Below, in pieces: positions 18,049 through 23,765 of a DNA stretch of 28,923 nt; the stretch's first letter is position 1; each line of letters starts with the position of its first letter. This DNA is from a virus. The notes below the pieces were generated by a model. It was not told where the DNA came from. It saw only the letters and a list, made by a program, of their open reading frames with translations, and ran no database searches. The position numbers were made by a program, and so were the translations under genes. The stretch lies in IMG/VR virus record IMGVR_UViG_3300001450_000181, positions 1 to 28,923 of that record; one strand, 5' to 3'.

Positions 18049-18460
18049 TACATGAGGCTTCGTATGCTTTTTCTATTTGCTTCATGTAACCGAGCATACA
18101 AGAACCGCATCGTGTTTTCTTCTTACGTTGTGAAAATACCCTTTCGTATACGTCCACTACTAATTGCATTTCTCCATCGTATAGACGGTTGCGTGACATA
18201 GCAGGTTTTAGGGTGTCTTCAAAAATCTTCTTGTCCCCTTCGTTCATAGGTTTCGCATAAGGAAAGCGTTTATTTAACCACTCCTTACGTTTGCTACATC
18301 CACAGTCTTCTCCTAAAACTGTTTCGACTACTTTCTTTATTCCTGTAGCTTCAGTTATCTTCTCTATCGAGTCCCCTATACCCTTTGACTTTTTCTTTGA
18401 CTTCTTCTTGGGCTTTTTTGAGGGCGTTGTAGAGGGTGCTTTTTGAGATACCTGTGGCAT
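18041..18460 (-). CDS. Conserved phage protein with GIGDSIEKIT motif and Cys pairs
   Basis: The 139-aa protein has a Lys-rich N-terminus (KKPKKKSKKKSK), then 'GIGDSIEKITEATGIKKVVE' and 'GEDCGCSKRKEWLNKRFP', a signature common in Bacteroidetes phages. A second pair, CGSC, lies near the C-terminus (about 117-120), so a Cys2-Cys2 metal site is possible. The first 110 bases overlap the end of the sigma-like gene in another frame. The conserved motif begins only near residue 27, so the overlap is probably genuine, though the exact start is uncertain. Function is not known. Confidence 0.65.
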   Translation of the reverse strand: MPQVSQKAPSTTPSKKPKKKSKKKSKGIGDSIEKITEATGIKKVVETVLGEDCGCSKRKEWLNKRFPYAKPMNEGDKKIFEDTLKPAMSRNRLYDGEMQLVVDVYERVFSQRKKKTRCGSCMLGYMKQIEKAYEASCNE

Positions 18461-18887
18461 TAGATAATGATTTTAATGAGTGACTATGAAGATAGTATAT
18501 GCGGAAAATCTCTGCATTGAACCAATCCATGTCTTGCAATATAGTGTTAATATATTTAATAGTCTCCGTTGTATCGTATTCGTTATCAACATCTTCATCA
18601 ACAGCTCTCAATAGAGACGGAGGGTAGTTTACTAATTTCTCGCTATGTTTTTTATATTTGTAGTAGAATCTGGTTGTGCTGCTGAAACCACATATAGCCA
18701 TTGTTCTGCATATGTATTTCATTAAATCTCCGTCTTCACACATCTTCTCCAAAAGTGGTCTGGGTTCTTCTAAATAGTATACAGCTAAATCGTGAAGTAA
18801 GTCGCCCCCATATCCTCCAACGTAACGGTTTGAAACTTTTAACAGTTCGTCGTAGTTCTCCTTAAAGAATTTGTTAAGGCAGCTCAT
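18351..18887 (-). CDS. Sigma-70-like transcription factor
   Basis: The 178-aa protein resembles the compact sigma-like factors of Bacteroidetes phages. Residues 15-80 form a region-2-like helical part (GGDLLHDLAVYYLEE, then KYICRTMAICGFSSTTRFYY). Residues 118-165 form a region-4-like helix-turn-helix (AEIFRIYYLHSHSLKSLSNA, GISKSTLYNALKKAQEEVKE). It would direct host RNA polymerase to phage promoters, most simply the late head, tail and lysis genes. It follows the NinG-like gene with a 14-base overlap. A key gap is that no repeated late promoter is visible, and it could instead be a non-sigma regulator. Confidence 0.65.
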   Translation of the reverse strand: MSCLNKFFKENYDELLKVSNRYVGGYGGDLLHDLAVYYLEEPRPLLEKMCEDGDLMKYICRTMAICGFSSTTRFYYKYKKHSEKLVNYPPSLLRAVDEDVDNEYDTTETIKYINTILQDMDWFNAEIFRIYYLHSHSLKSLSNATGISKSTLYNALKKAQEEVKEKVKGYRGLDREDN

Positions 18888-19272
18888 TAAATTTTCGCGT
18901 AAAGTGTTCTCTCAATTCTATCATTTCTTGTGTAGAAAACTTGCGTGTTTTATTGCTCATAATTTCAATCTTTTCGGCTGTACCTTTTCCAAACACTTCG
19001 TCCAAGCGTTTACTAAAAAGATACTGTTCTCCCCCTCTCATATTACACCTCTTACATTGGGGCATGACATTAACCATACCATGTTCAGGTTCGTAAAGAA
19101 ATCTTGTACTCATCTTTGACCTGCTTTGAAAGTGACCGCAATCGGTTTCATACTTCCAGTCCTTTTTCGCACCACAAGTAAAACAGTTTATAAAGCCGTT
19201 TTCATCTGCGTTGCTCTTACGCACGTACTTGCTTAGGGCATCGTCTAGTTTCTTTTTCTCTCGCTTTCGCAC
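18874..19272 (-). CDS. ninG: NinG-like recombination protein
   Basis: The core 'ADENGFINCFTCGAKKDW' (about 45-62 of the long frame), 'TDCGHFQSR', 'PQCKRCNMRGGEQYLFSKRL' gives the CxxC, His and CxxC zinc-site pattern of the lambda NinG family, which acts in recombination on branched DNA. The frame opens from a GTG at 19341, but that longer N-terminus would be translated from a terminator hairpin and T9 run (residues 11-22, ISLSFFFLYF). I therefore prefer the GTG at 19270-19272, giving RKREKKKLDDALSKYVRK. No ATG exists before the core, so the start is uncertain. The gene follows the terminator and leads into the sigma-like gene. Confidence 0.75.
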   Translation of the reverse strand: MRKREKKKLDDALSKYVRKSNADENGFINCFTCGAKKDWKYETDCGHFQSRSKMSTRFLYEPEHGMVNVMPQCKRCNMRGGEQYLFSKRLDEVFGKGTAEKIEIMSNKTRKFSTQEMIELREHFTRKFNELP

Positions 19273-19285
19273 AGCGAAATATAAG

Positions 19286-19312
19286 AAAAAAAAAGAGAGG
19301 CTAATGCCCCTC
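19286..19312 (-). terminator. Rho-independent terminator ending the replication unit
   Basis: On the minus strand GAGGGGC pairs with GCCTCTC (7 bp, one G-U) around an ATTA tetraloop and is followed directly by T9. It lies 73 bases after the stop of the gene at 19386 and before the NinG core. It is the best-formed terminator in the window. Confidence 0.8.
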
Positions 19313-19385
19313 CCTTTAAACAAACGCACACACTTATCCACAATACCGAAAGAACAACCGATACTATGAATAGCGTAAAGATAGG

Positions 19386-19976
19386 TTACTTCTCTTCGTT
19401 ATGCGACTTATTTTTATTTTTTAATCTAGTCCCTAACCTATCGAAACTTCTATCGGGTGTAGGCTCGTTGAGTACGTCCTTTAAAAATTCTCCTAAAGGC
19501 TTGTAATCCTTTGAGCGTTCTATAGGCTTAAACGTTTCTGACTTACGTTTTTTATGTAAAGTCTCCATTACTTCGGTTCGTACTTCACCTTCGTACTTTC
19601 TCAAGCAATCTAAAATCTCTGCTGTTTTTAGCCTTTCAAATAGTTTACCAAATTTCCCTTGTCTAATCATAACGAAACAAACCCGTATCTCTTCTAGCTT
19701 TAAAGTGGGGTGTTCTTCTAAAATACTCCTACAACAGAATTGTATCTCTTCGTCTGTAGAGAGAGTTTTATTTGCGTCCACTTCTTTTATAAGCCTACCT
19801 ACCTCTGCCATAATCCAGCCCCTTATAATTTGTGGGTTGTGCTTTACGGCTGTCTGTATATTCGTTCCCGACTCCCATGCCTCTGTCGGTTTGACTAAGG
19901 TTTTGTTATCCGTTATTAACGAAATCGTTAAGGGCTTCAGGTGTGAAGTTGTTTGTATTAAATCCTTTTTTTCCAT
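19386..19976 (-). CDS. Probable replication accessory protein (DUF6633-like)
   Basis: I place the start at the ATG at 19974-19976 (MEKKDLIQTTSHLK), giving about 196 aa; the longer frame from 20063 would overlap 158 bases of the initiator gene. The core, 'GWIMAEVGRLIKEVDANKTL', 'SILEEHPTLKLEEIRVCFVM' and 'RQGKFGKLFERLKTAEIL', resembles a family that follows replication initiators in Bacteroidetes phages. The last 50 residues are basic. It may load or tether the replisome (helicase-loader-like), inferred from position. The chosen start still overlaps the initiator gene by 71 bases. It is the last gene before the terminator. Confidence 0.6.
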   Translation of the reverse strand: MEKKDLIQTTSHLKPLTISLITDNKTLVKPTEAWESGTNIQTAVKHNPQIIRGWIMAEVGRLIKEVDANKTLSTDEEIQFCCRSILEEHPTLKLEEIRVCFVMIRQGKFGKLFERLKTAEILDCLRKYEGEVRTEVMETLHKKRKSETFKPIERSKDYKPLGEFLKDVLNEPTPDRSFDRLGTRLKNKNKSHNEEK

Positions 19977-20538
19977 GCGTGTTTTGTTTATTTCTGCGTT
20001 TCCATTGTCGAGCGCAAGCTTTCCAGTCTTTAATTGAATTACCGCCTTTGACTTTCCACCCAACTGAGTCGTACCAATCTACGAATTTTTGTGCTTCGTC
20101 CAATAACATTCCTAAATCTTTAAAGTAATCTAAAACCTCATCAAAATTTTTAGGTCGCCCTTTCATTGGTTTAGGTAGTTGGTTAAAGTTATTGGTTATA
20201 GTAGTCCTCACCTGAGTGAGGTCAGTACCCTCAGTAGAGTGAGGTATGCTCCCACACTTGAGTGAGGTAGGCAACCTCATTAGCCTGCGGTTAGCTCCGT
20301 TAATAACGGTACGCTTTCTTTCTAGCCTTTTACTATCTACTAAACTACGTATAGCCTTTTCTATTCCACTCTCAGAAATTCCTATTAATTCTGATAAATG
20401 TTCGTTGCTTACAAAGCAGTCTAAATTATTCTTAGAAAAGGAATCTACCTCCAGTAGAATAATCTTCTGCGTCCAAGTTAAGTTTGTATCTAAATACAAG
20501 TCTGCTGGAATCCATACCCCTTTGAAGTTTCTACCCAT
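19906..20538 (-). CDS. Replication initiator, O/DnaD-like with N-terminal winged helix
   Basis: The 210-aa protein has an N-terminal winged-helix domain (about 5-90) with 'GVWIPADLYLDTNLTWTQKI', 'CFVSNEHLSELIGISESGIE' and 'KAIRSLVDSKRLERKR', like initiators of the lambda O / phage replication type. A linker (about 91-130) and a helical C-terminal domain follow ('VLDYFKDLGMLLDEAQKFVD', 'GNSIKDWKACARQWKRR'), the part that usually contacts host helicase or loader. It should bind iterons and open the origin. The linker DNA contains three repeats at 23-bp spacing (20206-20282), the lambda-like arrangement of origin inside the initiator gene. It overlaps the preceding small membrane-protein gene by 8 bases. 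Confidence 0.75.
   Translation of the reverse strand: MGRNFKGVWIPADLYLDTNLTWTQKIILLEVDSFSKNNLDCFVSNEHLSELIGISESGIEKAIRSLVDSKRLERKRTVINGANRRLMRLPTSLKCGSIPHSTEGTDLTQVRTTITNNFNQLPKPMKGRPKNFDEVLDYFKDLGMLLDEAQKFVDWYDSVGWKVKGGNSIKDWKACARQWKRRNKQNTHGKKGFNTNNFTPEALNDFVNNG
20206..20282. repeat. Putative replication origin: three iterons at 23-bp spacing
   Basis: GAGTGAGGT occurs on the plus strand at 20214-20222, 20237-20245 and 20260-20268, exactly 23 bases apart, with CCTCA or CCACA half-sites recurring at the same phase (20206-20210, 20229-20233, 20252-20256, 20275-20279). CCTCAC-CTGA-GTGAGG is a perfect dyad at 20206-20221. Because 23 is not a multiple of 3, the same 9-mer is read in three frames (Thr-Ser-Leu, Pro-His-Ser, Leu-Thr-Gln), so selection is on DNA. 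AT-rich sequence (TTGGTTATAGTAG) adjoins it. Confidence 0.75.
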
Positions 20539-23258: not shown

Positions 23259-23266
23259 CAAATATA
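23259..23266 (-). promoter_or_regulatory. Early promoter, Bacteroidetes-type -7 element
   Basis: TATATTTG on the minus strand matches the Bacteroidetes -7 consensus TAnnTTTG exactly. It lies 23 bases before the ATG of the first early gene. A good -33 TTTG is not visible; TTTATTAG lies at about the right distance. An RNA start a few bases downstream would give a very short leader. Confidence 0.6.
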
Positions 23267-23298
23267 GGGTATTTAATCTAATAAACCTAATTACCCTT

Positions 23299-23331
23299 AC
23301 TTGTATTTACTTGTATACAAGCTGTACAAGT
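23299..23331. promoter_or_regulatory. Operator-like phased half-sites upstream of the early promoter
   Basis: ACTTGTA occurs at 23299-23305 and 23309-23315, exactly 10 bases apart, and its inverse TACAAG(T) at 23316-23321 and 23325-23331. TTGTATACAA (23311-23320) is a perfect 10-base palindrome. Four half-sites on one face of the helix beside a promoter are typical of a dimeric repressor or activator site. Confidence 0.55.
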
Positions 23332-23342
23332 TTGTCTAATTA

Positions 23343-23474
23343 GTGAACACACTCACCTAATAGCATAACCAGAAGTGAACACGCACGTTTTACGTACGTT
23401 TCCCGTAAACCCGTACGTTTCCCGTAAAATACCCTAATCCCAGTAAAACCAAGCAACCCCGCAAACCCCGTAAA
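23343..23474. repeat. Direct repeats: GTGAACAC pair, 17-bp pair, CCCGTAAA triplet
   Basis: GTGAACAC is at 23343-23350 and 23375-23382. The 17-mer CGTACGTTTCCCGTAAA is at 23393-23409 and 23412-23428, identical and 19 bases apart. Its end CCCGTAAA recurs at 23467-23474. On the minus strand these read as TTTACGGG boxes in a G-rich stretch. They may be binding sites for a regulator or a second replication-related site. Confidence 0.6.
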
Positions 23475-23540: not shown

Positions 23541-23603
23541 CTAATTTAACGAGTGAAGAACTATGAATAACTACAATCACTATGTACTCTCGTTAAAATG
23601 TTA

Positions 23604-23765
23604 TTACTTTCTTCTGCTCTTACCAAATACTACTGCTTGTAAAACTCGTTTTAAGATATTGATAATCTTATCGTCTTTCGTAGTTTCAGTTAAGGCTGTG
23701 TAAGTACCTAGAAATGTTACAAGGGCTAAAGCAATCTCTACCCAATTAGCTGTTAAAAATTCCAT
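23604..23765 (-). CDS. 53-aa holin candidate
   Basis: The product begins MEFLTANWVEIALALVTFLG and ends KRVLQAVVFGKSRRK. One clear hydrophobic segment (about 8-25) follows a short N-terminus. The second half is amphipathic and ends in a positively charged tail, a common layout of small phage holins. It starts two bases from the end of the amidase gene and is the last gene before the terminator, so it belongs to the lysis cassette. Having only one clear span leaves open a different membrane role. Confidence 0.55.
   Translation of the reverse strand: MEFLTANWVEIALALVTFLGTYTALTETTKDDKIINILKRVLQAVVFGKSRRK

Follow-up and report, generated by a model that had tools for sequence, protein, structure and literature searches.

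In bacteriophage lambda, the origin of replication lies in gene O, whose central part carries four palindromic iterons followed by an AT-rich tract (PMC7466680), and a partner gene overlaps the initiator gene downstream. In RepA_N plasmids such as pSK41 and pTZ2162, the origin is central in rep, and the protein segment encoded there is dispensable (PMC5703833); the origins of these plasmids contain semi-palindromic iterons (PMC7145576). Here we describe a locus in viral DNA, in a stretch of 28,923 nucleotides (the window, meaning the whole stretch that was analysed), which resembles in-gene iteron origins of the lambda ori type in having tandem palindromic sites between the two domains of an initiator, an AT-rich tract adjoining the array, and an overlapping gene downstream.

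The initiator gene and its neighbours

The minus-strand gene at 19906-20538 encodes a protein of 210 aa, which PHROG and Pfam profiles identify as a replication initiator. Its Pfam match to HTH_36 (4.5e-07) lies above the cut-off, with 30 bits against 25 bits; DnaD_N and Phage_rep_O score weakly, the latter below its curated cut-off in the Pfam profile search (16.5 against 28.7 bits). Matches to PHROG families annotated as replication initiation, DnaD-like loader or O-like extend from 3e-11 to 4e-4, with the replication-initiation families phrog_270 and phrog_428 at 3e-11 and 4e-11, respectively, and O-like families at 1e-6 to 8e-5. The Pfam family RepA_N did not match the protein at E 0.1, and it is absent among the 25 families listed for the initiator's alignment.

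In the AlphaFold model (mean pLDDT 71), an N-terminal winged helix at residues about 12-88 and a helical C-terminal domain at about 132-185 are joined by a linker, of which residues 96-118 fall at pLDDT<50 and which is probably disordered. It is these linker residues that are encoded by the repeat array described below. In fold comparisons, the winged helix matched, among others, the RepA structures 5kbj, 4pql and 4pt7 and the DnaD structure 2v79; the matches include DNA-binding domains of RepA plasmid initiators, one of them a Rep-DNA complex. Many transcription regulators score as well as initiators, so that the fold by itself does not prove an initiator, and a sequence search of solved structures returned mainly MarR-type regulators.

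The gene downstream (19386-20063, minus strand, 225 aa) overlaps the initiator gene, as does a downstream ORF at the related locus L047. It matches phrog_35728 (5e-06) and, weakly and below the cut-off, DUF6633. Placed like P relative to O in lambda, its product is a candidate helicase-loading partner. Further downstream of the initiator, a gene for a NinG/Rap-like endonuclease (18874-19341) adjoins one for a sigma-factor-like HTH protein (18351-18887), a pair that recalls the lambda nin region.

Upstream of the initiator gene, next to region 23343-23474, a conserved stretch near 23259-23283 has the minus-strand sequence TTAGATTAAATACCCTATATTTG, a TAnnTTTG-type sequence which we take to be a Bacteroidota promoter, and it looks like the promoter of the operon containing the initiator. 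Within 23259-23343, this promoter of the Bacteroidota type (TATATTTG on the minus strand, 23259-23266) has upstream of it CTTGTATACAAG, a palindrome resembling an operator, and two TTACTTGTAT repeats; the segment is likely an early promoter with its repressor site. Because of the TAnnTTTG motif, and because some relatives occur in Bacteroidota genomes, the host probably belongs to the Bacteroidota. A short unlisted minus-strand ORF (about 23600-23765, starting MEFLTANWVEIALALVTF...) lies between this promoter and the amidase gene and was also found in L171 and L173; a terminator-like stem follows it, and by position it is holin-like.

A repeat array under selection at the DNA level

An exact search located GAGTGAGGT at 20214-20222, 20237-20245 and 20260-20268 on the plus strand, with start-to-start spacings of 23 and 23, and at no further position in the 28,923 bases. 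Each copy sits within a 16-bp palindrome, CCTCACTnnnnTGAGG. As the period is 23 bp, the coding-strand form ACCTCACTC is translated as T-S-L, P-H-S and L-T-Q across the copies in the minus-strand ORF 19906-20538. Both the three exact copies at 23-bp intervals and their three translations had been reported in a preliminary description of this DNA, and both were recovered here. In the coding direction, the array starts with a degenerate iteron on the minus strand at 20275-20290, which has two mismatches to CCTCACTnnnnTGAGG and keeps the 23-bp register. Iteron 2 (CCTCACTCAAGTGTGG, 20252-20267, minus strand) is in the same register and has one mismatch, and iterons 3 (CCTCACTCTACTGAGG, 20229-20244) and 4 (CCTCACTCAGGTGAGG, 20206-20221), also on the minus strand, match the palindrome exactly, the last of them adjoining a putative opening tract. 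The array covers about 92 bp (20206-20297); the span given earlier, 20206-20282, had the right location and was slightly too short, the fourth, degenerate copy having extended it. It is the top-scoring tandem array of the window (TRF scores 78 and 103; next best 56).

With the protein held fixed, none of 300 synonymous-codon shuffles reached the self-similarity of the array, and none of 100 reached its dyad symmetry, which holds at 18/24 positions against a shuffle mean of 11.7. The earlier statements that protein selection cannot explain the repeats, and that CCTCA half-sites give rise to dyads, thus agree with our results. Two groups of homologues with CCTCA iterons, about 53% alike in protein, could also be compared. 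At conserved residues, third-base identity between them is 0.85 in the iterons versus 0.43 in the N-terminal and 0.55 in the C-terminal domain, with amino-acid identity at 0.55 in the iteron stretch and 0.60 in the N-terminal domain. These comparisons indicate that the array is under DNA-level selection and that neither protein nor codon use explains it.

Distribution of the array among relatives

Well over 100 related loci, partly overlapping, came from scanning contigs of viral and genome collections, and the linker self-similarity of 95 distinct relative proteins was compared with that of 200 synonymous shuffles each. In 64 of the 95, the linker repeat was reached by at most one shuffle in 200. 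The repeat lag among these 64 was 23 in 31, 22 in 27 and another value in six; a few of the six are low-complexity stretches in proteins whose match is restricted to the C-terminal domain. L030, L065 and L066 gave no significant array in the synonymous-shuffle test. Arrays comprise three to seven tandem sites at a constant 22-23-bp period, and the iteron unit varies by lineage (CCTCACT..TGAGG, ACCCA..GGGT, CCGTA..TACGG, CCGAAA..TTTCGG, CCCCAAAATGGGG, GACAAAATGTC and others). The dyad is usually kept, being reached by at most 5/100 synonymous shuffles in 28 of 33 representatives. The comparison of homologues proposed in the preliminary description thus turned out in its favour: the 22/23-bp period holds across homologues in which linker residues, and even iteron letters, vary. 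Since related phages keep the layout while the repeat letters change, the in-gene iteron arrangement is old and widespread, as in lambda, and not one genome's curiosity. The window itself is without a near match in the phage collection, and no report of arrays of this type in Bacteroidota phages was found in the open-licence literature.

Because a period of 22 or 23 bp is not a codon multiple, copy number is expected to change in threes or with a one-base correction. The arrays of L118 and L106 differ by one 66-bp insertion, equal to three 22-bp units. Differences of 45 bp separate L078 from L072 and L094 from L120, and one of 24 bp separates L067 from L068, corresponding to one unit or two with a single base added or removed. 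A strict rule of three iterons at a time fits L118/L106 but was rejected and widened, because L078, L094 and L067 show steps of one or two units, corrected by 1 bp. As read from these pairs, arrays grow either in steps of three units or, if a single base is adjusted, by one or two, preserving the reading frame. In L067, the extra unit shifts the frame of the following tract (IPIPTTKP versus HNNTRNST), and the DNA is still G-free.

The N-terminal domain varies with the iteron. Among pairs of proteins with C-terminal domains at least 90% identical, N-terminal domain identity averages 87% where the iterons are the same and 67% (maximum 71%) where they differ, a correlation based on iteron classes assigned by eye. 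Winged helix and iteron type thus go together, as would be the case for a domain that reads the iterons. In L060 and L064 (gene positions about 248-270), a CCGTnGnATTTTACGG palindrome, which is the iteron type of another lineage, is kept upstream of the CCTCA iterons and is possibly a relic of an iteron switch.

Other gene arrangements were also encountered. In Staphylococcus phage IME1323_01 (L164, 2489-3567), an ORF for a short helix-turn-helix protein lies next to one annotated as a replication initiation protein, and this second ORF contains a strong 23-bp array (38/46 matches, 0/200 shuffles). In Bacteroides phage C3_41T2LP (L161, 3001-4132), the winged-helix domain has a separate gene, of 93 aa, in which the same synonymous-shuffle test detected no array; the origin of this phage is probably located elsewhere.

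The AT-rich tract beside the array

Directly abutting the last iteron is a putative unwinding tract of 41 bp (20165-20205, minus strand), AT-rich and G-free on the coding strand; no other 36-nt stretch of the gene is as poor in G. Across nearly all array-bearing relatives, the segment of 36 nt that follows the array has both the lowest G content and the highest AT content in the gene. Among relatives with GC-rich third positions, 51 of 239 tract codons end in G or C, where 148 would be expected for the same amino acids, and this codon-choice test favours a DNA-level constraint on the tract. As a duplex the window's tract is only moderately weak, 17% of window positions being weaker, so melting energy alone does not single it out.

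Many relatives carry TACTAATACAA just past the last iteron, to which GACTACTATAA is the weaker match in the window, and lambda has the similar CACTATTACAA near its last iteron. We propose TACTAATACAA as a putative functional motif; part of its conservation may be that of the protein, because it is usually read in one frame (Thr-Asn-Thr). The DnaD Recognition Element consists of two or more TnnT motifs on the strand that is opened beside initiator sites (PMC10201434). The window's 42-nt coding-strand tract has one TnnT, and relatives have 2.6 versus 1.4 expected.

It is conceivable, though we rate it as rather unlikely, that winged-helix initiators from a broad range of phages, lambda O included, share an origin design in which iterons with a period of about 22 or 23 bp are abutted by a conserved TACTAATACAA-type opener. 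Just as tentatively, such an opener might be read as a single strand by the initiator or its partner, by analogy with DnaA-trios or the DnaD recognition element. The further idea that iteron letters and winged helix drift together, with period and opener unchanged, is no less speculative.

A proposed origin and alternative explanations

We propose, with a probability of about 0.86, that the array serves this phage as a theta-type origin to which its own initiator binds, like lambda ori/O and pSK41 rep. Replication would start at the array. By analogy with these systems and with DnaD (PMC10201434), the winged-helix N-terminal domain, probably dimeric, would bind each palindromic iteron, and at three to four sites with a strict 23-bp period the bound initiators could align as an O-some-like complex. 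This complex would destabilise the adjoining AT-rich, G-free tract, and the helical C-terminal domain, perhaps aided by the protein from the overlapping gene downstream, would recruit or load the host replicative helicase. An origin can lie in this gene because the interdomain linker, which seems to be disordered, accepts many different residues and leaves the DNA free to dictate its sequence. The slope of the GC skew keeps its sign near 20.2 kb; with nearly all genes on one strand and a linear record without completeness estimate, which the relatives' records also lack, GC skew could not decide the origin.

The palindromes might instead be operators at which the initiator, or another winged-helix regulator, represses or pauses transcription, the origin being elsewhere. 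The N-terminal domain does resemble MarR-type regulators as well as initiators, and intragenic sites could serve as a roadblock. Three to seven tandem sites at a constant 22-23-bp period deep in a gene, beside an AT-rich tract under codon-level selection, are nevertheless what is expected of an origin, and we regard operators alone as unlikely; autoregulation could coexist with origin function. Somewhat less probable still is that the origin lies in the intergenic region 23343-23474 and that the linker array does something else. This region falls in the longest gap between ORFs and holds a 17-bp direct repeat, CGTACGTTTCCCGTAAA, present twice and 19 bp apart. The preliminary description had named it as the alternative site, but it is mostly absent from L008/L050, whose 92%-identical initiator keeps the array, and its sequence varies, unlike that of the conserved promoter part next to it, which favours an origin in the linker.

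Inverted repeats could also form mRNA hairpins controlling expression or decay, and the RNA does fold better than shuffles (z -3.3), but every DNA palindrome also folds as RNA. Moreover, G-U is depleted at dyad mismatches (0.065 versus 0.132 expected), although selection on RNA would tolerate it, and hairpins do not predict constant spacing or the coupling to the winged helix; we consider this highly improbable. Least credible of all is that the repeats reflect selection for a repeated peptide or a recent, functionless tandem duplication. The copies probably do arise by tandem duplication, but they lie in three frames, synonymous shuffles never reproduce them, their third bases are more conserved than those in the rest of the gene, and divergent lineages retain period and dyad while the sequence changes.

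The proposed assignment places an origin with base-level precision in an uncultured group of phages, and comparing linker self-similarity with synonymous shuffles is a simple test that, where GC skew fails, can locate such origins with no more than the sequence. Pairs of initiator and iteron in which the C-terminal domains are nearly identical offer a natural set for learning how winged helices read iterons. The locus also shows clearly how a function of the DNA can dictate the sequence of a protein, with indels that restore the frame.

Comparison with known systems

The preliminary description held that the arrangement mirrors lambda O and its origin, and the same shuffle test flags lambda O: as a positive control, it gave a lag of 23, reached by 2/200 shuffles, with a signal that coincides with the annotated iterons. 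The lambda iterons differ in sequence and are annotated as 18 bp at spacings of 20, 24 and 23, whereas the spacing in the window is uniform. RepA_N initiators have a structurally DnaD-like N-terminal domain, and it is to this group that the window's matches 5kbj, 4pql and 4pt7 relate; these systems differ in belonging to plasmids and not phages, in their C-terminal domain, and in the RepA_N profile that the window protein does not match. Among phages, Pseudomonas phage Skulduggery and Oceanospirillum phage vB_OliS_GJ44 have related winged-helix initiators with 22-/23-bp arrays (0/200 shuffles) next to a DnaC-type or AAA-type gene. They differ from the window in iteron sequence and C-terminal domain, and their arrays are unannotated in their records. 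An origin within the initiator gene is thus known already from lambda and pSK41-type plasmids; what is new is its assignment for this initiator family, the 22/23-bp period maintained across lineages with changing sequence, and the frame-restoring changes in copy number.
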